This document shows, in pieces, positions 5,664-61,622 of a stretch of DNA of 64,000 bases (position 1 is the first letter of the stretch; each line of letters starts with the position of its first letter). Source of the stretch: Pyrodictiaceae archaeon (lineage in GTDB: Archaea > Thermoproteota > Thermoprotei_A > Sulfolobales > Pyrodictiaceae); the NCBI GenBank assembly GCA_027036135.1, contig JALVSY010000007.1, positions 190,880-254,879 on the forward strand. The letters run 5' to 3'. The position numbers were made by a program, and so were the translations under genes. Under the pieces are notes generated by a model. That model did no database searches. It saw only the letters and a program-made list of their open reading frames with translations, and was not told where the DNA came from.

Positions 5664-7008
5664 GACTGTTGTCCTTGCTGCTCGGAGCGGCTCGGTTACC
5701 GACGAGATGAGGGAGGTTGCTCGGGTAGAGAGGGTGAGTCCGGAGAAGCTTAGGGACCGCATAGCATCTGGGAGAGTTGTGCTGCTTAGGAATACTAGGC
5801 GCAGCAGTGTCAGGGTAGCTGCTGTGGGTGAGGGGCTTAGTACCAAGGTCAACGTGAACATAGGCACGAGTGGGACCGTGGTGGATCTTGAGATGGAGCG
5901 GGAGAAGGCCCGTATAGCTGTGAGGTATGGCGCGGATAGCGTCATGGATCTGAGCATTGGAGGGCCACTGGACGAGATAAGACGCGTGCTGATGAAGGAG
6001 GCTGAGCCACTGCCTCTGGGCACGGTGCCTACCTACCAGGCCTGGGTAGAGGGCGTTAGGAAGTACAATGGTGTCTCTATGCCGGGTGACTGGTTCATAA
6101 AGGTTGTTGAGAGGCATCTACGTGACGGAGTAGACTTCATGACAATACATGCTGCTCTTAGCAAGGAGCTCGTGGAAAAGGTTGTGAGGAGCAAACGCGT
6201 GATGCCCATCATTAGTCGTGGAGGGGCTCTCTTAGCGGCGTGGATGCTTGAGAACAGGGAGGAGAACCCGTATAGGCAGCACTGGGACTACTTGCTCGAG
6301 TTATTCGCCGAGCACGACGCCGTTATCAGTATTGGTGACGCGCTTCGCCCAGGCACTATAGCTGATCAGCACGACGAGTTCCAGGTAGCAGAGCTAGTAG
6401 AGGCCGCTAGGCTGGTAAAGAGCGCGCGGGAACACGGCGTCCAGGTAATAGTTGAGGGGCCTGGCCACATGACCCTAGACCAGGTAGTGGCCGATGTGCG
6501 GCTAATGAAGAGTCTGACCAATGGTGCACCATATTATGTCCTTGGGCCACTCGTAACGGATACCGCGATGGGCTATGACCACATAGCAGCAGCGATAGGC
6601 GGTGCGCTAGCAGCAGCTGCTGGAGCAGATTTCCTATGCTACCTGACACCAGCTGAGCACCTAAGCCTACCGAGCCCGGAGCAGGTAAAGGAGGGACTCA
6701 TAGCGGCTAAGATAGCTGCGCACGCAGCTGACCTAGTGAAGCTAGGCCCGCGAGCAGCCAGGAGGGACATAGAGCTAAGCCTACTAAGGGCAAAGCTGCG
6801 ATGGAACGAGATGTTCAGGTACGCACCTGACCCAGAGAAGGCTAAGAAGATATACACCCAGTTCGGTACAGGCACCGAGGCCTGCAATATGTGTGGACAG
6901 TACTGCGCCTGCCTAATACTATCAAAGTATACACGTAGTAGGAGAGAACCCAGCACCGAGGAACTATTGGAGCGCTTCACGCGGAGCCACAATAACGCTT
7001 TTCCGTAG
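5656..7008 (+). CDS. thiC: Phosphomethylpyrimidine synthase ThiC
   Basis: Radical SAM enzyme converting aminoimidazole ribotide to HMP-phosphate, the pyrimidine half of thiamine. Hallmarks: 'VNVNIGTSG', 'DLSIGG', 'IISRGGALLAAWM', 'EGPGHMTLDQV', 'GPLVTDTAMGYDHI' and a C-terminal cysteine cluster 'CNMCGQYCAC'. The ORF track begins at 5590, but the ATG at 5656 (MAKTVVLAARSG) follows GGGAGG by a normal spacing and gives 450 residues, fitting short archaeal ThiC. It overlaps the thi4 stop by 8 bases. The cysteine motif has its third Cys one residue closer than the textbook CX2CX4C, with another Cys two residues on, so which three bind the cluster is uncertain. Confidence 0.93.
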   Translation: MAKTVVLAARSGSVTDEMREVARVERVSPEKLRDRIASGRVVLLRNTRRSSVRVAAVGEGLSTKVNVNIGTSGTVVDLEMEREKARIAVRYGADSVMDLSIGGPLDEIRRVLMKEAEPLPLGTVPTYQAWVEGVRKYNGVSMPGDWFIKVVERHLRDGVDFMTIHAALSKELVEKVVRSKRVMPIISRGGALLAAWMLENREENPYRQHWDYLLELFAEHDAVISIGDALRPGTIADQHDEFQVAELVEAARLVKSAREHGVQVIVEGPGHMTLDQVVADVRLMKSLTNGAPYYVLGPLVTDTAMGYDHIAAAIGGALAAAAGADFLCYLTPAEHLSLPSPEQVKEGLIAAKIAAHAADLVKLGPRAARRDIELSLLRAKLRWNEMFRYAPDPEKAKKIYTQFGTGTEACNMCGQYCACLILSKYTRSRREPSTEELLERFTRSHNNAFP

Positions 7009-7052
7009 TCCCCCTTCCCAGCTCATTGCGTGGCAGCGTATAGGTACAAGTC

Positions 7053-7439
7053 CTATCTACATGAGTAAGGTGGAACCCCATACCTCTTGGCAAGCCGTGC
7101 TAACTCCTTGTCAAACGTCACTAAGGGGGCACCAAGCCTCATGGCCACGTGGAGGATTAGGAGATCCTCATAGCGCCTCGGGTCACGGATAGCGAACCAG
7201 GCATCATCCCTTGTCACCGATTCATATATGAACCTAGGTTCGCCGAGAACGTAGGCAGTTATTGCCTGTGCTCGTGCAGCTCCATGACTCCTCCGGGTAC
7301 TCCACACAAGCTCGTGGACAACTATAGACGGTACAATAACCGCGTCCATGCACTCTACGAGCCGCCGCGCCTCCTCGTGGCCCGGCTCATCCTCGAGTAG
7401 CAAAGCCCTCATGAAACTCGTGTCAACAACTACTGGCAA
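7053..7439 (-). CDS. PIN-domain ribonuclease, VapC-like, without visible antitoxin
   Basis: 128 residues with the PIN acidic set: D6 in 'VVVDTSF', Glu in 'VVHELVW', Asp in 'YEDLLILH' and Asp in 'VTFDKEL'. VapC toxins are Mg-dependent RNases cleaving tRNA or rRNA, normally paired with a small VapB encoded just upstream. On this strand the upstream gene is MscS, 28 bases away, and no small antitoxin ORF fits between. It is therefore an orphan PIN gene, either a solitary RNase or a toxin whose antitoxin was lost. It converges with thiC. Fold assignment is firm, biological role open. Confidence 0.8.
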   Translation of the reverse strand: MPVVVDTSFMRALLLEDEPGHEEARRLVECMDAVIVPSIVVHELVWSTRRSHGAARAQAITAYVLGEPRFIYESVTRDDAWFAIRDPRRYEDLLILHVAMRLGAPLVTFDKELARLAKRYGVPPYSCR

Positions 7440-7467
7440 GAGGTCTAGGCGCCTCCCCCCTCTGGGG

Positions 7468-8292
7468 CTATTTCTTGGAAACCCTTAGGGGTGGGACATC
7501 CTTTACGTGTAGATCCAGCTGCGGGAACGGTATCTCTATCCCAGCCCTATCCAACTCCTCCTTGAGCCGTGTTTGTAGCTCTACCTTTGTCCGGAACCAT
7601 ACTGGTGGAGGTGCCCAGCACCGCATAGTGAAGACTATCGCTGAGTCCCCGTAGTCCTGGACGAAGACCTCGGGCGCGGGGTTTACTAGGCAGAATGGAT
7701 GCTCATCCATGAGTCTGCGAAGCACTTCTAGCGCCTTCCCTATGTCCGTATCGTAGCTTAGCCCTATCCTTATCTCTACGCGGCGTGCGCGCGTACGATA
7801 ATAATTAGTTATGATGCTTGTGAATACCTTGGAGTTAGGTATACGGACTATTGTCCCGTCCCATGTACGGACCTTGGTGGAGAACACGTTTATGTCAGAG
7901 ACTATCCCTTCAACTCCCTCAAGCGAGACAGGGTCACCTATTCTCAGAGGCTGCTCCATGAGGAGAAACATGCCACTTATTAAGTTAGATACTGCCTGTT
8001 GAGACGCGAAACCAATCACTATACCAGCTATACCGCCAGCGACTATTAGTCCTGACAAGTTTATTCCGAGAGGATAAAGAGCGGCAACACCGCCAGCAAA
8101 TACTATGCTGTAGAACACGATGTTCTCTATAGGCTTGTACATATATTCGGGTAGCCTACCCTTCAAGCTTCTACGCATGAGGCGCCGAATGAGGAGGGCG
8201 AAGAGGATACTTGCCACAAGTACAGCTATGGCAAGAGCTATTGATGTAAGCCTTGTCTTAATCCCCTTGATAACCGCCTCGTTTATCCTCAA
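7468..8292 (-). CDS. Small-conductance mechanosensitive channel, MscS family
   Basis: Membrane tension-gated channel that releases solutes on osmotic downshift. 274 residues: TM helices at about 15-36, 50-70 and 74-98, the last being the pore helix with the Gly/Ala pattern 'GGIAGIVIGFASQQAVSN', then the beta domain 'GDPVSLEGVEGIV' and 'VRIPNSKVFTSIITNYYR', and a C-terminal alpha/beta domain ending in a lysine-rich tail. Start TTG at 8292 with GGTGA overlapping the stop of the upstream DUF432-like gene 8 bases away, so both are one transcriptional unit. Family confidence is high. Confidence 0.9.
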   Translation of the reverse strand: MRINEAVIKGIKTRLTSIALAIAVLVASILFALLIRRLMRRSLKGRLPEYMYKPIENIVFYSIVFAGGVAALYPLGINLSGLIVAGGIAGIVIGFASQQAVSNLISGMFLLMEQPLRIGDPVSLEGVEGIVSDINVFSTKVRTWDGTIVRIPNSKVFTSIITNYYRTRARRVEIRIGLSYDTDIGKALEVLRRLMDEHPFCLVNPAPEVFVQDYGDSAIVFTMRCWAPPPVWFRTKVELQTRLKEELDRAGIEIPFPQLDLHVKDVPPLRVSKK

Positions 8293-8300
8293 CGCTTAGC

Positions 8301-9017
8301 TCACCCAGTCGATATAGGGGTTATGAATGCTGGCAGAGCCACAGCCAATCTCAGCTTCCTGAAATGCCCCCAAGCCTCTACGAGCCCCTCACGTGGTGGG
8401 CTATCGCTCAGCCTAGCAGTAATATGATGGGGCTCTCTCTTAGCAATAAGCACGGGATAATAGACCTGGTTTTTCTCGTCGAGATAGAAGCGGGCAAGAG
8501 CCACATTGAATCCTACACCCGGTACTACTCCCTTGACACCGCCAATATCTATACGTATAATGGCTAAGCCTCGCGGCTCTAGCTCGTCTAAACGCATCAC
8601 CGTCCTTGTTGGATGATAACGACATACTGTTCCATCAACTATGCTACCGACAAGCGTGTACTTTACGCGGAAGGGCGACACATAGCCAAGGACTGTTTCA
8701 TCGACATGTATTACTAGCTCGTAGGGAGCTAGGGCCCAAATACTAATAGTCCTTTCACCGATGACTATGGGTTCACTGAACTCGAGATAGATGCAGCCTG
8801 AGAGCATCTGGGGCCTGTGAATAGGTGGTACCGGATCCACATAGACCACGTCATTGTCTACTAAGCGAGACTTGCCACAGCCATAAGGGTCGCAGTACTC
8901 TATGAGCCCGGAGCCACTATACTCTATACTCGCAAGCCCATACCTAAGCGACTCGCCGCGCCTAAGCATAGCGAAGTGTTGCTCCATAACAGCCGAACCC
9001 TGCTCTTCTCTAGACAT
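8301..9017 (-). CDS. DUF432-like archaeal protein, partner of MscS
   Basis: 238 residues, no signal peptide or TM segment, rich in beta-strand-like sequence ('SGCIYLEFSEPIVIGERTISIWALAPYELVI'-type region split by loops) with conserved-looking Cys/Gly turn 'YCDPYGCGKSR'. From memory this resembles archaeal DUF432 proteins, which are often encoded next to MscS channels; I could not verify by search. The gene ends 8 bases before the MscS start and its stop overlaps the MscS ribosome site, implying co-translation and a possible cytoplasmic regulatory role on the channel. The ATG at 9017 lacks a clear Shine-Dalgarno; Met11 is an alternative start. Confidence 0.6.
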   Translation of the reverse strand: MSREEQGSAVMEQHFAMLRRGESLRYGLASIEYSGSGLIEYCDPYGCGKSRLVDNDVVYVDPVPPIHRPQMLSGCIYLEFSEPIVIGERTISIWALAPYELVIHVDETVLGYVSPFRVKYTLVGSIVDGTVCRYHPTRTVMRLDELEPRGLAIIRIDIGGVKGVVPGVGFNVALARFYLDEKNQVYYPVLIAKREPHHITARLSDSPPREGLVEAWGHFRKLRLAVALPAFITPISTG

Positions 9018-9063
9018 GTATAAGCCTATGCGCCGTGCCCTAGCCGCTTCTTTGCACGGACAC

Positions 9064-9085
9064 CACTAAGTAAAAAGACTTAGTG
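9064..9085. repeat. Perfect inverted repeat upstream of the DUF432-MscS unit
   Basis: CACTAAG, 8-base AT-rich spacer TAAAAAGA, then CTTAGTG. It lies 47-68 bases upstream of the DUF432-like start and overlaps the best TATA-like stretch on that strand (CTTTTTAC). This placement fits an operator; a terminator hairpin for the gene at 9191-11335 is unlikely because transcription of that gene reaches this point only after its stop. Confidence 0.45.
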
Positions 9086-9190
9086 ATATACGCCTAAGAG
9101 GAAGCAGTGCAAGAGGACGGAGCACTGGAAACTCAAGGAGATCGGGCGGAGCAAAAAACAATTAAGAGAATGTGCCGTATTGTAGAAAAA

Positions 9191-11335
9191 CTAGCTACTT
9201 AGGGACACTATAGAGGTTATTATCATCTCTATTATCGCTATTACCCTTTCTAGGAACATTCTTATCTTCATAGCTATCCAGTCGCTCGGCACTATGCTGC
9301 TTAGCACCTGCTTTGTTGTGTTAAGGGCGTTCTCGAGATATGTCTTTGCAACTGATATGTTTCCGCTTGCAAGGCTCTTCTCAGCCTCCTTGAGCATCTC
9401 CTCAACGCTTTCTAGCTGCTTTATCATTGTCTGATTCCCTTCTAGTTTTGCCAGCTTGGTTACTGCGCTTACTAGGCGCTCAACAACGATAACGCCTCTA
9501 GCTAGGTGCTTGGCCTCTTTCTTACCGAACTTCTGGACTGGTGCTTGTCCTAGTGAGACGAGTATCTTCTTGACAATGGACTCGGCTCTATCTACTAAGT
9601 GTAGTAGTATGTCTATTTTTCTGAACTCTATACTGTTTCTTATACTTTTCAATAGATTGCTTGATCCAGTGGCTGTGCTCGTATTGTTGCTTGATCTATA
9701 GCCTCCTCTCTCCGCTAGCCCGACCCTGGTATCTCTATGGCGCCTGCCCTTCATTTTCGGTGTTGTTGTCTCAGTGTGCGACGGCGTGCTTGTTGATGTC
9801 TCCGTGTGTACCGGCGTTGTGGTTGCTGTGTGACTCGATGCTCTTGTGCTAGTATGCGTAGTCGTGTTGGTCCTTGTGCTGGTTATTGTGGTGTTGCTCA
9901 TTGTCTGGCTCTGGGTTCTGGTACTGCTCGGGTGCTGTGCTTGCTGGCCTTGGAGCTGCTCTCTGTATTGTTTTAGCGCCTCTTTGAACTCCTCGAGCGC
10001 TGTGAGCGCCACATTAGCTGCTTTGACTACCTCCTCTTGGCTCGCCTCGCCGGCTCTGTACTCCTCTAAGATGCTTACTAGTTTTGTTAGGTTTCCTAAG
10101 GCATGGTTGTACTGTGTTGATAGGTTGCTTGGCACGAGGTTCTTTGCCGCTCTTAGCTCTAGTGCCACCAGTTTTAGTGCTAGTATCTCTCTATCGATGC
10201 TCTTTATCGGCATAATTGGTATCGGTATTATGTGGAACTTCTTGAATATCGGTGCTATTAGTCTAGGCATCATGTGCCTTATCTTTATTATCTCTATGAT
10301 GTCGCCGAGGCCATGTAGTCTTGGTAGCTCGGTCTTAGTCTTGTTAATTACTTGCTCATAGTGCTCAAGTATCTGCTTAAGTATAGCTACTTCTCTCTCT
10401 AGTATCTGTGCAGCTCTTACCCTGCCTTCTTGTCTTAGCTTCTTAGCCTCCTCGGTTAGGTTGTCTATCTTTTTCTCAAACATCTCCATCATTCTATGTA
10501 GTGTCTGCATAGCCTTGCAGGCATGAGGCTCTGCTATAGCTATTCTCGCTTGAGTAATTAGGCTTGAAGCATTCTTTACAAATTCCCTCACTCTCGTCTC
10601 TAGAGCCTTAGTCTCGTTAAGTGCTTGGCTGAGGCTCATGTTGCCTACTAGGATTGCTTGTCTCAACACCAGGGTCTCATTGAGCAGCTGCTTGTCTAGT
10701 GTTATGGTCTTGTTAACCTCTGTTATCATTTCCCCTAGCTTCTTAGTGGCATTGTCGCATGCCACTCCGCTTCTCTCTGCCCAGTGCAGTGAGGCCTCTA
10801 GGTGATGCAGTGTGAATATGAGTGAGGCCATAACGGCTCTCTCTAGGGCAGCGAGCTTATTGATCCTGGCCAATAGCTTAGTTGCTGTGACGTTAATGCG
10901 AGCTACGTGGCTCGCATAGAGCTTAGCAGCCTCTGCTACCAGTAGCCCGAGTTCCTTGAAGAGCTTGGCTGCCTCTTGGCGCGCTTCATCGGGCTTGCCT
11001 TGCTTAACTAGGTTCTCTATCTCCGGTATAGTATTGTTTATCTCCTGGAGCTTTGTCCATAGGCTAGAGTTGCTAGGCACACCCCACATCTTGAAGAGCG
11101 CTGCAACATTTTCTACACTCATATTTAGAGCTATTACTATGCCGTATCCAGCGTTAGTATTTGTAATATTACTAGTAACGGTTACATTTGCTGAGGCACT
11201 AGCTTCTCCCTGTTGTGCTTTAGCTAGCTGGGCTAGTGGACCTATACTGGCTAGTAACATTACACCTACTACTAATAGGGCTGCTAGGGTCCTGGGCCCT
11301 ATTCCTCTCATGGATCGGGTCACCTTTTGGCTCAC
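9191..11335 (-). CDS. Exported helical protein with Thr/Ser-rich linker, unknown function
   Basis: 714 residues. A signal peptide follows the start ('TLAALLVVGVMLLASIGPLAQLAKAQQ'-type hydrophobic run ending AKA). The mature part has N-glycosylation-type sites (NVT, NIT, NMS), then long alpha-helical, probably coiled-coil stretches (about 90-470), a Thr/Ser linker at about 480-530 ('TITSTRTNTTTHTSTRAS'), a basic patch 'MKGRRHRD', and a second helical block ending in an amphipathic or membrane-contacting helix. Such architecture suits a cell-surface or S-layer-associated stalk protein; no enzymatic motif is seen. The track start is GTG at 11335 (GGGGAG 5 bases before), but ATG at 11311 with GGTGA 7 bases before gives a more typical signal peptide. 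Confidence 0.65.
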   Translation of the reverse strand: MSQKVTRSMRGIGPRTLAALLVVGVMLLASIGPLAQLAKAQQGEASASANVTVTSNITNTNAGYGIVIALNMSVENVAALFKMWGVPSNSSLWTKLQEINNTIPEIENLVKQGKPDEARQEAAKLFKELGLLVAEAAKLYASHVARINVTATKLLARINKLAALERAVMASLIFTLHHLEASLHWAERSGVACDNATKKLGEMITEVNKTITLDKQLLNETLVLRQAILVGNMSLSQALNETKALETRVREFVKNASSLITQARIAIAEPHACKAMQTLHRMMEMFEKKIDNLTEEAKKLRQEGRVRAAQILEREVAILKQILEHYEQVINKTKTELPRLHGLGDIIEIIKIRHMMPRLIAPIFKKFHIIPIPIMPIKSIDREILALKLVALELRAAKNLVPSNLSTQYNHALGNLTKLVSILEEYRAGEASQEEVVKAANVALTALEEFKEALKQYREQLQGQQAQHPSSTRTQSQTMSNTTITSTRTNTTTHTSTRASSHTATTTPVHTETSTSTPSHTETTTPKMKGRRHRDTRVGLAERGGYRSSNNTSTATGSSNLLKSIRNSIEFRKIDILLHLVDRAESIVKKILVSLGQAPVQKFGKKEAKHLARGVIVVERLVSAVTKLAKLEGNQTMIKQLESVEEMLKEAEKSLASGNISVAKTYLENALNTTKQVLSSIVPSDWIAMKIRMFLERVIAIIEMIITSIVSLSS

Positions 11336-53749: not shown

Positions 53750-54322
53750 CTAGTCCTTGTTGCTCTCGCTCTCGTTTGCGTTATTCTTCTTACTAGCAAT
53801 ACTGCCGAGCTTCTGAATAGTTTTCTTTAAGGCTCTTACTAGTAACGCGTAGTTTGGAGCCTTGTCCTCTAGGCATTTATAAAGATCGTCTATCCAAGGA
53901 TCTATGTATCTTTTCGCGAACTCGTAAGCAACCTCTGGGCTCTTCTCGCTTATCGCGGACATGTATTCTAACATAACCGGCAGGAAGTCTGGTAGCTCCT
54001 TCTTTATGGGAACATCATATCCCGTTGCTTTAAAGAACATCTTTATCTCTAAAAGGTACTGGCCCACTTGTTCCTGTTTATTTTTCAAGGTATAGTGATG
54101 CGCGTAGAGAGGGCACTGAACCGGCATCTCGAATATAGATACATAAAATTCGTCAGCGTCCTCGGGATTAATGCTGTTAAGGAACTCATAGATCAAGCGA
54201 GCAGATTCCTCGTCCTCGGTTGCAAGTATCTTGTAGACATCTTCTTTAACCTCTACTAATTCTCTAAACTCATCACGAGGATAATCAAATAATATTGACA
54301 GAGTCTTTAACAAGTATTTCAC
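53750..54322 (-). CDS. narJ: NarJ/TorD-family chaperone for nitrate reductase
   Basis: 190 residues, helical. 'LFDYPRDEFREL' N-terminus and 'ELPDFLPVMLEYMSAISE' match the NarJ/DmsD/TorD family, which binds the Tat signal of the molybdenum subunit and holds export until cofactor insertion. As last gene of the nar operon it overlaps the membrane-protein gene by 4 bases (ATGA). Its client is NarG with 'TRRDFLK'. C-terminal tail is Asn/Ser/Lys-rich. Confidence 0.85.
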   Translation of the reverse strand: MKYLLKTLSILFDYPRDEFRELVEVKEDVYKILATEDEESARLIYEFLNSINPEDADEFYVSIFEMPVQCPLYAHHYTLKNKQEQVGQYLLEIKMFFKATGYDVPIKKELPDFLPVMLEYMSAISEKSPEVAYEFAKRYIDPWIDDLYKCLEDKAPNYALLVRALKKTIQKLGSIASKKNNANESESNKD

Positions 54323-55089
54323 GGCTCAGCCACCCTACGAGCCTTATTCATTTCAACTAGATAGAGGGCTGCAAGGGTTATTATTTGGTTAGAGAGCTGT
54401 AAACGAGGCCCTGTGAGAAATAGGCCGTATAATCCAGGCCTCCCGGCTAAAGAGTAAGCTATTAACCCGGCAACAAGGAACCACGGATTCAGTATCCCCA
54501 TGCCGAATGTAAGTATTTGAGACACTGCATAGGTATTAAGAAGGATTAACCCGGCAACAAGAGCTGAAATCGGTATACTCCAACGAAGCCCCTTGACCCC
54601 TTTACGAGTCACCAGCGGTATAGGTGCCAATAACCAAAGTATTTGTGATAGATAAGCCACTAGTAGGCTACTAGTAAAGGAAGTAAGCGCTAACACAGCT
54701 AGAGCTACGGCCTCAGCTACTCTCCTCTTATCACGGACAAGTATTAGCCCTGCAACAAGGAAGAGAACCCATGAGAGACGGATAACACCTAGATAATCAG
54801 CAATAGACAATACCAGCGTTGCTATGGCTATGACTGCTGCAACAATATCCCTGCGAATAGCAGCAATAAGACCAAGGATAACAAGTCCTAAAACAACCGA
54901 TAAGTTGAGAGCAAACAGGCCAGTCTTTGACACTATCTCGGCTAGGAGCCTCGTTACACTTGATGATGGAATGAATATCCATATACGGATAAGTATGCGG
55001 TTAAACAGTAGCTCTACTACGTAAGTAGCTAATAAAGCAGTGGAAAGGGCTTTAGCGCCTCTATAAATGTCCTCATCATTTACTTCCAT
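54319..55089 (-). CDS. Polytopic membrane protein of the nar operon, no histidines
   Basis: 256 residues with about eight TM helices ('ALLATYVVELLFNRILIRIWIFI', 'FALNLSVVLGLVILGLIAAI', 'VLFLVAGLILV', 'LLWLLAPIPLV'-like and others). It occupies the place of the cytochrome b membrane subunit (NarI or NarC-b) yet contains no His at all, so it cannot ligate haem by bis-His. I see no quinone motif. It could be a membrane anchor or a NrfD-like module reduced in cofactors, passing electrons from quinol to the haem b subunit by an unknown route. Translationally coupled to narJ. Confidence 0.6.
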   Translation of the reverse strand: MEVNDEDIYRGAKALSTALLATYVVELLFNRILIRIWIFIPSSSVTRLLAEIVSKTGLFALNLSVVLGLVILGLIAAIRRDIVAAVIAIATLVLSIADYLGVIRLSWVLFLVAGLILVRDKRRVAEAVALAVLALTSFTSSLLVAYLSQILWLLAPIPLVTRKGVKGLRWSIPISALVAGLILLNTYAVSQILTFGMGILNPWFLVAGLIAYSLAGRPGLYGLFLTGPRLQLSNQIITLAALYLVEMNKARRVAEP

Positions 55090-55241: not shown

Positions 55242-56219
55242 TTATGTTGTATGTCTCCTTATGAGTGCTAGCCCTAGTGCTACTGCGAGCACTATTATTA
55301 CTACTGAGAGCCCTATGATAACGCCCTTGTTCACCTTAACTACTGTAGTGGTTTTTGTCACTGTCGCCGTAGTAGTCTTTGTCACAGTCTTTGTAGCAGT
55401 AACGGTGGTTGTCTTTGCTGGTGTAGGCGTTACTGTACCCGTTGCTGTTAGCGGTGCGAATTTCAGTGTGAACCATCCGCTTATCTCGTGCATACCTGCA
55501 CGCTGGTCGAGGGAGCCCTCCCAGTTAGCAAACGCAACACTCGTTGTTTCGCCTGGCTTGAAGCTCGGTACCAGGGGGAACACAGAGCCCATGGGCCTCA
55601 TTAGTACTACCTTCCACATGCCATTCTCGTACTTGGCGCTGGCTACCCAGATTTGTGCTTGTGGCGGTAGCTCCTCAACAGGGCTGGTTGTCGCCTCCTC
55701 CATGCCTATAGCGTACTTCTCGCCAGGCTGCATGCCATACCCGCTACCAGCAACCATGTTTTCAACTCCTCTACCTGCTTTCCAGAATACTATGTTAACT
55801 GGGTGCGCTGTATCGCCCATACATATGTAGGGCATGCCACTGCTGTTCACGGGGAACTCTGCAGCCACCGCGTCCGCGAATGCCGATATATTACCTGGTA
55901 TGCCCTCGACATCTTTTGTTGAGTCCTTCCATTCTATGAATAGTGCGAAGTGCGTGCCGTTGTAGGCCGCTGCAACCTTAAGTGTCCTTGATATCGACTT
56001 ATAAGTTTGAGGATATACTAGCATCTGTGGAGACAAGGGAATGCTTACCTTGCTAACACTGCTCCAGAAACTTGCATCGGGGTTGAGAGGGATAGCGCCT
56101 TGCTTATAATGAACAAGTATTACTGGGGTCTGCGAGGTCGCTAATACCGCTCCAAGCCCGGTTGCTATAGCCGCGACCACGATACCAAGTATTATTCCCA
56201 ACAAGGTACCTTTTCGCAT
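55242..56219 (-). CDS. Haem b-binding gamma subunit (DdhC/EbdC-like) of nitrate reductase
   Basis: 325 residues: N-terminal signal/anchor 'LLGIILGIVVAAIATGLGAVLA', EB_dh-type beta domain with 'CMGDTAHPVNIVFWKAG' (matching the Met-containing haem motif of EbdC/DdhC) and 'FANWEGSLDQRAGMHEISGWFTLKF', then a Thr-rich linker ('TKTVTKTTTATVTKTTT') and a C-terminal TM 'GVIIGLSVVIIVLAVALGLALI'. The linker tethers the haem domain outside the membrane. It should pass electrons to NarH. A strong AAATAAATA box at 56241-56250 gives it a possible own promoter; GGGGAGGG precedes the ATG. Confidence 0.82.
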   Translation of the reverse strand: MRKGTLLGIILGIVVAAIATGLGAVLATSQTPVILVHYKQGAIPLNPDASFWSSVSKVSIPLSPQMLVYPQTYKSISRTLKVAAAYNGTHFALFIEWKDSTKDVEGIPGNISAFADAVAAEFPVNSSGMPYICMGDTAHPVNIVFWKAGRGVENMVAGSGYGMQPGEKYAIGMEEATTSPVEELPPQAQIWVASAKYENGMWKVVLMRPMGSVFPLVPSFKPGETTSVAFANWEGSLDQRAGMHEISGWFTLKFAPLTATGTVTPTPAKTTTVTATKTVTKTTTATVTKTTTVVKVNKGVIIGLSVVIIVLAVALGLALIRRHTT

Positions 56220-56297: not shown

Positions 56298-57710
56298 CTA
56301 GGAGCTTTGAATAGAGGGGATCCGCTGGCTTGCAAGTCTTGGAGGCCTATTGCGTGTAGGTATCACCCATCTATCCTTGCCCAATGCTAGCCACTTGTAG
56401 ATGAGGTCAGCATCCTCTATGCTTAATCCTACTTCTTGCAGTACCGAGGCAGCCGCCATTTTACTCATACCCTCAACGTTTATTCTTCTAAAGAATTCCC
56501 TTATCGCCACTAATCTCTTCAATGCCTTCTTTACTTCATCCACATTCCCGGCAGCAAACATGTTAGCTAAATACTGTAAAGGTATCCTCATTTCATCTAT
56601 AGATGGGATTATGGACTCGTACTTAGCATCATATGTACCGTTGGGCCCCATGCTTGCTATAACCGGGCTTAGTGGCGGTATATAGAACACCATAGGTAAT
56701 GTTCTATATTCCGGATGTAGTGGCAGCGCTATTTCCCACTTCTTGAACATATAGTATGCAGGGCTCTCCTGCGCAGCTTTAATAAAGTTGTCAGGGACTC
56801 CATCAGCCTTTGCTTGCTTTATAACCTTTGGATCGAAGGGATCCAGTATTATGCTACGATGAGCAGCTACTAGCTTATCTTCTGGAGCAGAAGCTGCCTC
56901 TAGTACTTTATCCTCGTCGTATAAGACGACTCCGACGTATCTTATTCTTCCAACGCACGTCTCAACACAGATCGGTGGTAGTCCTACCTCGAGCCTGGGG
57001 TAGCAGAATATGCATTTCTCGCTTTTACCAGTCTTCCAGTTAAAGAATATCTTTTTGTATGGGCAGGCTATCTCGCAGTATCTATAGCCCTTGCACCTGG
57101 TCTGGTCTATAAGTACTATACCGTCTTCCTTCCTCTTATATATAGCTTTTGTTGGGCAAGCCGCAACGCATGCTGGGTTCAAGCAATGGTTGCAGAGTCT
57201 TGGTAGATAGAACATAAATATGTTTCTCAGCGTCATATATATAGATGCTTGTATGTTCTTCCAATTAGGATCAGCTTTTCCATATATGTTTGCACCGCCT
57301 AGATCGTCGTCCCAGTTAGGACTCCACTTGATCTCCATTGGTTTCTTGGTGTACATGTTTATTGGGTTAGCAACTGGCTGCTCCTCTCCTACCTCTGGGG
57401 CAAATAGTGCCTTATAATCATAGGTATATGGTGTATAGTAATCTCTCATCTCCAACGGCTTAAACTTCTTCTCTACTTCAAGTCTTAGCCGAAGCTTACC
57501 GTTTACTAGTACCCAGCCTCCACCATATCTTTCTTGATCCTCCCATAGTTTGGGATAACCAACTCCAGGCCTTGTCTCTACATTAGCCCACCAAGCGTAC
57601 TCTTGGCCCTCTCTATTTGTCCATACCTTTTTCCCATTTATGGCACACGCATGGCATCCTAGACATTTATCGAGATTTATTACCATAGCGAACTGTGCTC
57701 TTATCAACAC
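56298..57710 (-). CDS. narH: Nitrate reductase beta subunit NarH, four-cluster protein with altered first motif
   Basis: 470 residues. Electron wire from the haem b subunit to NarG. Cys groups: 'CLGCHACAING' (16-26), 'CNHCLNPACVAACP', 'CKGYRYCEIACP' and 'KCIFCYPRLEVGLPPICVETC'. The aromatic Tyr in CKGYRYC corresponds to the Trp that makes one cluster [3Fe-4S] in E. coli. The fourth Cys of the first motif (C26 in E. coli numbering as I recall, CIGCHTCSVTC) is Gly here. GTG 57710 with GGGGTG; 39 bases after narG, so one operon. Confidence 0.92.
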   Translation of the reverse strand: MLIRAQFAMVINLDKCLGCHACAINGKKVWTNREGQEYAWWANVETRPGVGYPKLWEDQERYGGGWVLVNGKLRLRLEVEKKFKPLEMRDYYTPYTYDYKALFAPEVGEEQPVANPINMYTKKPMEIKWSPNWDDDLGGANIYGKADPNWKNIQASIYMTLRNIFMFYLPRLCNHCLNPACVAACPTKAIYKRKEDGIVLIDQTRCKGYRYCEIACPYKKIFFNWKTGKSEKCIFCYPRLEVGLPPICVETCVGRIRYVGVVLYDEDKVLEAASAPEDKLVAAHRSIILDPFDPKVIKQAKADGVPDNFIKAAQESPAYYMFKKWEIALPLHPEYRTLPMVFYIPPLSPVIASMGPNGTYDAKYESIIPSIDEMRIPLQYLANMFAAGNVDEVKKALKRLVAIREFFRRINVEGMSKMAAASVLQEVGLSIEDADLIYKWLALGKDRWVIPTRNRPPRLASQRIPSIQSS

Positions 57711-57749: not shown

Positions 57750-60700
57750 CTAGGTGCTTGAAGAAAAATCGGAGCCGAGCTTCTTATGGAGATACACAAT
57801 GGCTATATGGTCTCTGTTTATACCTGGCGGGCCATAGTAGTTGATGAAGAAGCTTAGCTGGGCATAGCCACCGACCATATCTGTTGGCTTAAGATATACT
57901 CTGGTAGGACTGTTGTGTGTACCGCCCTGCTTGCCTGTTAGCTTGCTCTTCTTGATATAGATGTGTCTCTCCTGGGCATGATACATGAATGCTACGCCCT
58001 CTGGTATCCTCGGGCTCGTTATAACCCTTGCTACAACTACGCCGTTATCATTCACTACCTCAACCCAGTCATTATCACTAAGCCCTGCCCATTCGGCATC
58101 CTTATCGTTAAGCCATATTACTTGTCCACCCCTGCCCAGTGTCATCATGAACCACGTGTCCCAGAAGGTTGTATGAATGTTCCACTTGCCATGAGGTGTT
58201 AGATATCTTAGCACTAGCATTTTCTTCCCATTAACCTCTATTCTATGCTGGCCCGGTATTATCGATCCAAGGCCAAGTCTCTTGCCAACATTAGTTATTT
58301 CGCCGAGCTTTAAGCCGTTAAGCGATGGCTTATAGGTTGGCAACATCTCACCTAATCCAAGGAACCAGTCATGGTCTATATAGAAGTGCTGCCTGCCGCT
58401 AAGCGTTCTCCATGGTATTAGTTTCTCCACGTTCTGCGTATAGGGAGCATATGTTCTGCCAGGATGCGGTATGCCGCTCCATATAGGCGATGTATGTACT
58501 CTCCTAGGCTGCCTTATGATATCTCTGAACTTTATTCTTTCGAGACTATCCACGAGTTCGACAAGGTTATTTAGGCCGGTCTTCTTCTCGAGATCCTTGA
58601 ACGCCCTAACACTTAGCTTTCCATTAGTCTCCGGGCTCAGAGCTAGTATGGCTTCTGCCACGTTCTTGTCCTTCTTAAGGCTTGGGCAACCATCTGGGCA
58701 CTTCTCCCAGTAGAGCACTCCGAACTCCTGCTTTAGCTCCTCGTAGACATCGCTTGCATCCATGCCTACTCCTTTGGCGCCTACCTTCTTTGCTCCCGGG
58801 CCTAGCGATATATACATCTTATAAACATTCTTGTAGTCTCTTTTCACTACATGCAGGTCCCACATAGTCTTACCAGGTATTGGCTCTCCTTCGCCCTTCC
58901 ACCACTCCTTGACAACGCCATAGGGCTGTGCTATCTCTAGCGGGGTGTCATGCCAGAGAGCTCGCGCGACTATATCTTCTACCGGCTCGGGGAAGTACTT
59001 TGCAGCCATTTCGCTAAACTTCTTTGCTAGCTCGGCGAATGCTTGCCAATCGGTCTTCGATTCCCATAGCGGTTCAACAGCCGGTGTGAATGGGTGAACG
59101 AAGGTATGCATATCGGTCATATTTAAGTCGTATTTCTCATACCAAGTAGCTGCTGGGAGCACTATATCAGCATAGAGCGATGTGGTACATACTCGGAAGT
59201 CGAGATCCACTAAGAGATCAAGTTTTCCTATAGGTGCTGGCTCTCTCCAGACAGCCTCTTTTACCTTGCCCTTAGCGTTCTCGTTAGCCATTACTTGTTC
59301 TAGTGGTGTGCCGAGGAGGTGCTTGAAGAAGTACTCAACGCCTTTACCGCTTGCGCCGAGTAGGTTAGACCGCCATACGAAGAGTACTCTGAGCCAGTTC
59401 TCCGGCGCGTCTGGATCCTCTATTGCAAACTTTAGCTTACCTTCCTTCAAAAGCTCAGCAACGTACTTTATCGGGTCCTTGCCCTGCTGTCTTGCCTCTT
59501 TTGCTAACTCTATTGGATTCCTATTCCACTGCGGATAGAATGGGAGCCATCCGAGCTTAGCGGCGATTATGTTACAATCCATTGAATGGTTACACTTTAC
59601 TTTCTTCTGTACCTCTTTTACCGAGGGAGCAAGATCCTTGACTTCCAAGGGATCATAACGCCACTGATCCGTGTGCACATAGAAGAAGCTTGGACTGTTC
59701 TGGTGCCTCGGGGGCTTCACCCAGTCCAGGGCAAATGCTACCTTGGCCCATCCGGTAAGGGTTCTTATCATTTCCTGGCCAACATAGTGGGCCCAACCGC
59801 CTCCGTTTCTACCCTCAGCCGCTGTTAACTTTATTAGCAACAATATGCTGCGATAAGTTAGGTCCGTATGGAACCACTGGTTGATACCAGAGCCCATTAG
59901 TATCATTACGCGGCCCTTACTCTTCAGCGCCGTCTCAGCAAACTCTCTCGCTATCTTTATTGCGAGGTTCCTCGAGATACCAGTTATCTTTTCTTGCCAT
60001 GCAGGGGTGAAGGGCTTTGGATCATCGTAGCTCGTTGGGTAATCACCAGGGAGCCCACGGTTCACGCCAAGATATGCTGTCAGTAAATCAAACACTGTTG
60101 TCACATAAACCGTACCATTCTTTGTCTTCACCTTCTTTACAGGGACACCGCGCTTTACTGTATATGATTGACCAAACTCTGGACCAAAGACTGGGAAGGT
60201 TACTTGTATTACTTCGTCCTGCATTCCGAGGAACGTGAGAACGGGGTCTATCTTTGTCCCCGTCACTGGGTCCTCGAGCTTCAGGTTCCATTTACCGCTA
60301 TTATTATCATCCCATCGATAACCTATTGATCCATTAACCAATCTTATCCTCTTTGTATTTGCATCGTAGACTAGGAGCTTCCATTCAGGGTTCTTCTCAT
60401 TACCATACCTAGGATCAGCGTACTCGCTTGGATCTAGATCAGATAGTCTTAGGAACTTGCCCGGCTTGTACTCACCATCCTCGTAATCCAGCTTGACGAG
60501 GAACGGCAGGTCCGTGTACTTCTTTACATAGTCCAGGAAGAAGTCATAATTCTTCTTTACATAGAACTCGGTGAGCAGGACATGCGCCATACCTAGTGCT
60601 AGAGCACCGTCTGTGCTGGGTTTTACTGGTATCCAGACATCAGCGAATTTTGTATTCTCGGTGTAGTCGGGGCTTACTACTACTATCTTGGTGCCCTTGT

Positions 60701-61622
60701 ATCTAACCTCTGCGAGGTAATGGCCATCAGGAGTTCTCGTCAATGGTATATTGGTGCCCCAGTCTATTATGTATGCTGCATTGTACCAGTCAGCGCTTTC
60801 TGGTACATCTGTTTGTTCGCCCCATATCTGAGGGCTCGCTGGTGGTAGGTCGGCGTACCAGTCATAGAAGCTGCCCATAGCGCCACCTATAAGCTCTATG
60901 AATCGTGAGCCGCTAGCGAAACTTACAGGACTCATAGCCGGTATCGGCGTGAATCCGAATATCCTATCGGGGCCATACTTCTTTATAGTGTATATTAGAG
61001 CTGCAGATATTATTTCAAGCGCTTCATCCCAAGTTGTTCGTACTAGTCCTCCTCGTCCGCGAGCGCTTGTATACATTTTCTTCTTGTTGGGGTCGGATAC
61101 TATGCTTTCCCAAGCCTTTACGGGATCACCATACATGGCCTTAGCTTGTCTCCAAAGCTGGAGGAGAGGCTTCCTTATGTAAGGGTACTTTATTCGTGTG
61201 GGCGAGTATATGTACCAGCTAAAGACGGCGCCTCTAGGACAACCCCTTGGTTCGTAATTTGGTATGGTTGGGCTTATTTCTGGATAATCCCTAGCTTGTA
61301 GCTCCCATGCTATTATACCGTCTTTTACATATACGAACCAAGAGCAAGAACCGGTACAGTTTACTCCATGAGTTGATCTCGCCACCTTATCGTATTTCCA
61401 CATATTCCTATATAGTTGCTCCCACTTCCTTAGTTGCTCCGGATAGCCAAGTCGCGGATTACCTATCTTTACTAAATACTTGTCTTTGTCAAGCACCTTG
61501 GCTATCTTGTCGGCTGATGCAATAAGCTTTATAGATGAAGCAGCAGCGCCCGCAGCAGCAAGTATCTTTAGAAAGTCCCTTCGTGTTAGTTTGCTGGTCT
61601 TCTCCTCTCCCAACACGTTCAC
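57750..61622 (-). CDS. narG: Nitrate reductase alpha subunit NarG, Tat-exported
   Basis: Molybdo-bis-MGD enzyme reducing nitrate to nitrite. 1290 residues. Tat signal 'LTRRDFLKILAAAGAAASS' places it outside the membrane, as in other archaeal Nar enzymes. FS0 ligands H85, C89, C93 ('HGVNCTGSCSW') and C128 ('PRGCPRG') have the same spacing as E. coli NarG. Asp257 in 'FYDWYADLPPASPQIWGEQTD'-type sequence is the Mo ligand. The C-terminal MopB domain is complete. Track start GTG 61622; TTG 61613 has GGTGA at a better distance. First gene of narG-narH-haem b-membrane protein-narJ; nitrite fate is not shown in this window. Confidence 0.95.
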   Translation of the reverse strand: MNVLGEEKTSKLTRRDFLKILAAAGAAASSIKLIASADKIAKVLDKDKYLVKIGNPRLGYPEQLRKWEQLYRNMWKYDKVARSTHGVNCTGSCSWFVYVKDGIIAWELQARDYPEISPTIPNYEPRGCPRGAVFSWYIYSPTRIKYPYIRKPLLQLWRQAKAMYGDPVKAWESIVSDPNKKKMYTSARGRGGLVRTTWDEALEIISAALIYTIKKYGPDRIFGFTPIPAMSPVSFASGSRFIELIGGAMGSFYDWYADLPPASPQIWGEQTDVPESADWYNAAYIIDWGTNIPLTRTPDGHYLAEVRYKGTKIVVVSPDYTENTKFADVWIPVKPSTDGALALGMAHVLLTEFYVKKNYDFFLDYVKKYTDLPFLVKLDYEDGEYKPGKFLRLSDLDPSEYADPRYGNEKNPEWKLLVYDANTKRIRLVNGSIGYRWDDNNSGKWNLKLEDPVTGTKIDPVLTFLGMQDEVIQVTFPVFGPEFGQSYTVKRGVPVKKVKTKNGTVYVTTVFDLLTAYLGVNRGLPGDYPTSYDDPKPFTPAWQEKITGISRNLAIKIAREFAETALKSKGRVMILMGSGINQWFHTDLTYRSILLLIKLTAAEGRNGGGWAHYVGQEMIRTLTGWAKVAFALDWVKPPRHQNSPSFFYVHTDQWRYDPLEVKDLAPSVKEVQKKVKCNHSMDCNIIAAKLGWLPFYPQWNRNPIELAKEARQQGKDPIKYVAELLKEGKLKFAIEDPDAPENWLRVLFVWRSNLLGASGKGVEYFFKHLLGTPLEQVMANENAKGKVKEAVWREPAPIGKLDLLVDLDFRVCTTSLYADIVLPAATWYEKYDLNMTDMHTFVHPFTPAVEPLWESKTDWQAFAELAKKFSEMAAKYFPEPVEDIVARALWHDTPLEIAQPYGVVKEWWKGEGEPIPGKTMWDLHVVKRDYKNVYKMYISLGPGAKKVGAKGVGMDASDVYEELKQEFGVLYWEKCPDGCPSLKKDKNVAEAILALSPETNGKLSVRAFKDLEKKTGLNNLVELVDSLERIKFRDIIRQPRRVHTSPIWSGIPHPGRTYAPYTQNVEKLIPWRTLSGRQHFYIDHDWFLGLGEMLPTYKPSLNGLKLGEITNVGKRLGLGSIIPGQHRIEVNGKKMLVLRYLTPHGKWNIHTTFWDTWFMMTLGRGGQVIWLNDKDAEWAGLSDNDWVEVVNDNGVVVARVITSPRIPEGVAFMYHAQERHIYIKKSKLTGKQGGTHNSPTRVYLKPTDMVGGYAQLSFFINYYGPPGINRDHIAIVYLHKKLGSDFSSST

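Follow-up and report, generated by a model that had tools for sequence, protein, structure and literature searches.

Exported nitrate reductases of the Thermoproteota are encoded together with a polytopic membrane protein, here called X, that takes the genomic slot held by the cytochrome b subunit NarI in other archaeal nar loci. X was recognized in a 64,000-nucleotide stretch of DNA from a Pyrodictiaceae archaeon (the window). It is probably a physical member of the nitrate reductase complex, and we tentatively propose that it is a membrane subunit that docks the haem b protein NarM and offers it quinol. The way in which electrons enter the outward-facing archaeal enzymes is described as open in the literature (PMC8301774, PMC4683180), and a conserved, unnamed protein found in place of NarI wherever NarG is exported is a concrete suspect for this step. 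The occurrence of X in cultivable organisms (Aeropyrum, Pyrobaculum) makes it a directly testable candidate.

The nar operon and protein X

The nar genes lie on the minus strand of the window in the order narG-narH-narM-X-narJ (Table 1), with gaps of 39, 78 and 152 bp along narG-narH-narM-X and an overlap of 4 bp between X and narJ. NarG, NarH and NarJ score well above the cut-offs of their own NCBIfam equivalog models, and the twin-arginine leader of NarG reads KLTRRDFLK. The product of the narM-like gene consists of an N-terminal hydrophobic segment, the haem domain, a Thr-rich linker and a C-terminal transmembrane (TM) helix; together with its EB_dh and TIGR03477 matches, this layout bears out the first-pass annotation, which had described a DdhC/EbdC-like haem subunit tethered by such a linker. 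The nearest solved structure is the ethylbenzene dehydrogenase gamma subunit (2ivf_C), and the protein also matches the CbsA model TIGR03154 (3.1e-13). In the NarM alignment Met134 is invariant, while His244 sits at the column of K201 of 2ivf_C, which is likely an axial haem ligand and is Lys in nearly all other NarM proteins. From the alignment, Met/His rather than Met/Lys haem ligation is possible in the window's lineage.

Table 1. Features of the nar operon in the window (positions within the window)
Feature	Position	Strand	Description
narG	57750..61622	-	molybdopterin catalytic subunit, twin-arginine leader (exported); TIGR01580 1617 bits; TAT_signal
narH	56298..57710	-	iron-sulphur subunit; TIGR01660 4e-183
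narM-like gene	55242..56219	-	EbdC/DdhC-type haem-b subunit; Pfam EB_dh 3.4e-35; TIGR03477 1.6e-59
EB_dh haem domain of narM-like protein	55494..56075	-	aa 49-242
Thr-rich linker, then C-terminal TM helix, of narM-like protein	55257..55460	-	aa 254-321
X	54319..55089	-	256-aa polytopic membrane protein, haem-free, no named family; proposed exported-nitrate-reductase membrane subunit
X residues 26-41	54967..55014	-	invariant E26..N30-R31..R35..F39.P41, outer half of TM1
X residues 226-235	54385..54414	-	T-G-P..Q.S.Q motif between half-helix and last helix
narJ	53750..54322	-	assembly chaperone; TIGR00684 6.2e-36; start overlaps X stop by 4 bp

The open reading frame of X begins with ATG and encodes no His, confirming the His-free polytopic protein that had been noted between the haem b subunit and narJ. 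At the His frequency of the family (1.06%) a 256-residue member would lack His with P ~0.065, and the absence of His from X, taken alone, is poor evidence. The family speaks more clearly: across 22 homologues no alignment column contains His in more than 7, and His recurs only at position 235, in members of the Pyrobaculum group alone. A family without conserved His has no bis-His haem site, so this part of the earlier description holds as well.

X is coding beyond doubt, because homologues with ~32-45% identity hold the same operon position in many genomes. A search of 147 genomes of the same order gave strong homologues in 8 other genomes (E 1e-26 to 1e-41), and the X profile reaches genomes of the Pyrobaculum group (E 1e-18 to 1e-27), whose proteins are less similar. 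Neither Pfam nor NCBIfam has a family for X: all 16 members tested, the window's protein and its homologues, gave nothing above noise, and readings of X as NarI, NrfD or another known family were ruled out. The NarI model PF02665 matched neither X nor 15 homologues, X had no Pfam match to the NrfD/PsrC model PF03916, and a PDB sequence search with X returned no match. Outside the Thermoproteota, a search of 295 Archaeoglobus-phylum genomes did not turn up X; one match there (E 0.008) was discarded as it contained five stops. Away from nar, the genomes searched gave no full-length match better than E 0.001, and weak matches in eight genomes (G011, G047, G059, G066, G076, G130, G332, G626), short or interrupted, were taken as chance.

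Within the genus of the window's genome, X was present in 0 of the 4 other genomes searched, and a Nap-like enzyme has instead been reported in Pyrodictium delaneyi (PMC5556600). In this genus the nar operon seems to be patchily distributed or gained by horizontal transfer.

X and NarI in archaeal narG loci

A survey of narG neighbourhoods, which the first-pass annotation had called for in the Pyrodictiaceae, covered 21 distinct readable loci from two lineages, and in all 21 X is the next gene after narM. All 8 strong homologues from the same order belong to narG-narH-narM-X-narJ loci. In the Pyrobaculum group X again stands right after narG-narH-narM, and narJ is divergent upstream where seen; archaeal narG contigs (Acidilobaceae, Aeropyrum, Thermoproteaceae, Pyrobaculum) added five more loci with the same order.

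Among the 397 Thermoproteota sampled, a strong narG match was found in 13 genomes with X and 9 without. In all nine of the latter a NarI-like gene and a major facilitator (MFS) transporter adjoin narG, and PF02665 was matched at E<1e-59 in each of the seven tested. Four Archaeoglobales-type loci have the same NarI layout, confirmed by Pfam in two. None of the archaeal narG loci compared combined X with NarI, which supports the view, already taken in the first-pass annotation, that X stands in for the NarI cytochrome b.

The choice between the two follows the export of NarG. In X loci NarG carries a twin-arginine leader, of the form RRxFL in the Desulfurococcales type and TRRR or SRRR plus a hydrophobic stretch in Pyrobaculum, whereas NarG of all 13 NarI loci starts without one; in this comparison an over-long ORF start hides the leader at one locus (L017), and contig ends truncate some of the narG genes of X loci. 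Since X coincides with exported NarG and NarI with leaderless NarG, X marks the outward-facing enzyme and NarI the inward-facing one, and X plus NarM versus NarI is a clean either/or. A cytochrome b in the position of X, which had been expected, is a property of the inward-facing bacterial Nar and not of the exported archaeal Nar.

Several Thermoproteota (loci L172-L180) have inward-type narGHJI with an MFS gene and no TAT leader; both orientations of Nar thus occur within one phylum.

X also decays together with nar. In one of two Pyrobaculum-group genomes (L069/G267 and L070/G203) narG has been lost, narH and narJ are reduced to fragments, and narM and a damaged X are left; in the other, a 44-aa piece of X is the only remnant.

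Predicted structure of X and possible electron entry into NarM

An AlphaFold2 model of X, built with 16 homologues, has a pLDDT of 92.3 and a pTM of 0.88 and contains 8-9 membrane helices, several of them short or broken, in agreement with the eight or so counted earlier. Lys and Arg show a strong preference for alternate loops, with ~11 per protein in the even-side loops plus the termini versus ~1.4 on the other side, and by the positive-inside rule both termini should be inside. The most conserved positions that are polar or charged and lie in membrane helices are E26, N30, R31, R35, D98, W152, Y187, Q191, Q231 and Q235; the last of these, which ends the T-G-P..Q.S.Q motif, is His in Pyrobaculum. 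In the N-in topology, the outer half of the membrane holds E26, N30, R31, R35, D98, Y187, Q191 and Q235, and W152 lies in the middle. Mean information is 2.08 bits in the outer half versus 1.43 in the inner half, a difference reached by 21 of 1024 helix-flip controls. The outer half, where conservation peaks, is the side on which the exported NarGH-NarM must sit. In the model, the invariant charged residues within helices and the broken helices point to a pocket with a function more than to a plain anchor. Foldseek, which is weak on helical membrane proteins, found no PDB match to this model or to that of CbsB at E<=0.001, and the best PDB fold matches for the X and CbsB models were unrelated ABC transporters with TM-scores near 0.2; the missing match is no strong evidence of a new fold.

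These features can be accommodated in a model for the exported enzyme of the Thermoproteota. X would be the integral subunit of NarG-NarH-NarM, at the membrane position of NarI, and would hold NarM, and thereby NarH and NarG, on the membrane's outer surface. It would form a haem-free pocket in the outer half of the bilayer, where menaquinol would give electrons to the haem b of NarM; these would then travel via the clusters of NarH to the Mo/W site, and nitrate would be reduced outside the cell. Both the decay of X along with nar and its strict alternation with NarI are consistent with this model. Membership in the complex is its firmer element, and the quinol pocket is a tentative proposal whether X belongs to the complex or not: X has no visible site for a redox cofactor and no homology to any quinone-binding protein. 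More speculatively, X may found a new class of haem-free quinol-oxidising subunits for outward-facing molybdoenzymes, unrelated to NarI, NrfD or cytochrome b, that hand electrons directly to a haem b at the outer face.

The electron-transfer genes of the window's genome, which is 99.6% complete, bear on both this model and its main alternative. An unlinked narI or narC, which had been named as a possible source of the missing function, does not appear: the genome contains no NarI and no PF02665 match (positive controls matched), no bc-type cytochrome b and no Rieske protein. Three NrfD matches were found, none linked to nar and two in modules of their own. The first (L190) adjoins a twin-arginine molybdoenzyme and a 4Fe-4S subunit; the second (L189, at about 6200-10060 on the minus strand of G000:C7:768001-783000) adjoins an iron-sulphur protein and CxxC-rich proteins that are probably multihaem c-type cytochromes; the third (L191) is weak. 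The L189 module resembles Mcc of Pyrodictium delaneyi, which has been proposed to feed terminal reductases (PMC8105010), and it is a possible quinol:cytochrome c route in the window's organism. In a member of the Pyrodictiaceae the quinone has been reported to be methylmenaquinone (PMC8105010).

It is possible, though we hold it with some doubt, that X is a redox-inert anchor and docking platform for NarM. In this reading a distinct quinol oxidase would reduce a c-type cytochrome, which in turn would feed NarM; the oxidase would be a bc complex in Aeropyrum and Pyrobaculum, and an NrfD-type multihaem complex like Mcc in the Pyrodictiaceae, for which L189 and its cytochromes are candidates in the window's genome. 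The first-pass annotation had argued that electrons from quinol must enter by a new route; this does not follow, because a c-type cytochrome could reduce NarM, and two readings are live, of which the new route is one. Indeed, cytochrome c assembly proteins occur in 13 of 13 X genomes versus 1 of 9 NarI genomes, a count that ignores phylogeny, as would be expected of a NarM fed by cytochrome c. The pattern recurs within a single Pyrobaculum-type genus (g72), in which 5 of 5 genomes with an intact X locus have these proteins and 0 of 4 sampled without one do, the exception being a fifth member without intact X, whose nar locus is decaying and which does have them. The relatives of NarM, namely DdhC, SerC and EbdC, exchange electrons with soluble carriers. 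In the closest analogue of NarM-X, the CbsA-CbsB pair, quinol oxidation is ascribed to SoxN/SoxL and not credited to CbsB, which has been assigned no role (PMC3189178, PMC5461723). On the other hand, the occurrence of cytochrome c maturation may reflect not Nar but denitrification (NirS) or respiration with Fe(III). The X genomes have no other quinol oxidase common to them all (two lack cytochrome b and one lacks NrfD), and the invariant buried charged residues of X would be unneeded in a pure anchor.

A role for X in assembly, in inserting haem b or folding NarM and in exporting NarGH, with X outside the finished enzyme, is unlikely. It would fit the place of X between narM and the chaperone gene narJ, with the 4-bp overlap of the latter, and the descriptions of the purified Pyrobaculum enzyme in two citing papers, which list NarG, NarH and NarM and leave X unmentioned (PMC4683180, PMC5244752); these descriptions also count against X as a subunit. 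However, X is not needed by the haloarchaeal Orf7 or by the NarM relatives of other type II DMSO reductases, it was not found in the Archaeoglobus-phylum genomes searched, and where narJ leaves the operon, in Pyrobaculum, X stays with narM.

X could also be a distant homologue of CbsB, in which case NarM-X and CbsA-CbsB would be one ancient two-gene module. NarM does match the CbsA model, and both pairs consist of a haem-b ectodomain protein followed by a polytopic protein. A lone weak profile alignment pairs X 181-215 with CbsB 205-244, each with a broken helix, a GI.NP loop and a next helix. The CbsB model, which reaches a pLDDT of only 77, suggests an order of helices similar to that of X in the C-terminal half. 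The profile-profile comparison of X with CbsB (TIGR03155), using 16 and 22 X sequences against 9 and 14 CbsB sequences, was not significant (hhalign probability 0.5%, E 0.11-0.12), the HMM of neither family matches the other, and the conserved residues do not correspond; we regard common descent as improbable. Least probable is a nitrate/nitrite or ion transporter placed in the operon by chance: X has broken helices with polar residues, and NarI-type loci have an MFS transporter beside nar that X loci need not share, but X always follows narM, which is not a transporter position, matches no transporter family, and would be superfluous for nitrate uptake because the active site is outside.

Should X oxidise quinol without haem, as our preferred model proposes, it would be a third independent solution beside NarI/cytochrome b and NrfD. 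If it does not, cytochrome c feeds the exported Nar, and X is the anchor dedicated to it.

Relation to known nitrate reductases and membrane modules

The bacterial NarGHI enzyme, found also in Vulcanisaeta-, Sulfolobales- and Archaeoglobales-type loci, shares homologous NarG, NarH and NarJ with the window's operon, and both encode a polytopic membrane protein of ~230-260 aa. NarI is a bis-His dihaem cytochrome b, whereas X has no conserved His and no sequence match to it. The quinol subunits NrfD and PsrC are, like X, haem-free and polytopic and lie beside the 4Fe-4S subunit of a molybdoenzyme; the comparison is functional only, as there is no match in sequence or fold.

In CbsA-CbsB, the cytochrome ba complex of the Sulfolobales, a haem-b ectodomain with a Ser/Thr-rich linker and a TM helix is likewise followed by a polytopic protein. 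That pair is part of a bc1-like complex with SoxN and SoxL, while NarM-X goes with a molybdoenzyme. In the absence of detectable homology between X and CbsB, the likeness is one of analogy only.

The haloarchaeal Nar (NarB, NarC, NarG, NarH, Orf7, NarJ) is also outward-facing and has an EbdC-like haem protein, Orf7; its membrane module consists of a Rieske protein and a cytochrome b (NarB/NarC) where the window has X, and its electron donor has been called unclear (PMC2483277, PMC8301774).

The closest known enzyme is that of Pyrobaculum. Outward-facing archaeal Nar is already known, and the enzyme purified from Pyrobaculum aerophilum comprised NarGH with NarM as its haem-b anchor, according to PMC4683180 and PMC5244752, which cite de Vries 2010 and Martinez-Espinosa 2007. 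The first-pass annotation had put the arrangement forward as undescribed. This stands for X itself, of which no mention was found in a literature search short of the primary Pyrobaculum papers (Afshar 2001; de Vries 2010), and fails for the outward NarGH-NarM enzyme. By its genes, the window's enzyme fits the exported archaeal NarG-NarH-NarM type: its catalytic subunit is of the NarG family with a twin-arginine leader, and a gene for a single haem-b, EbdC-like anchor with a C-terminal TM helix follows narH. Pyrobaculum has the same TAT-exported NarG, the same NarH and a single haem-b NarM with a C-terminal TM helix; the window's NarM differs from the Pyrobaculum protein in having His where the usual Lys haem ligand stands. 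Pyrobaculum genomes carry the same operon, X included, and as the outward-facing archaeal enzyme and its NarM are known, X is a candidate for a new subunit of an established enzyme rather than a sign of a new enzyme type.
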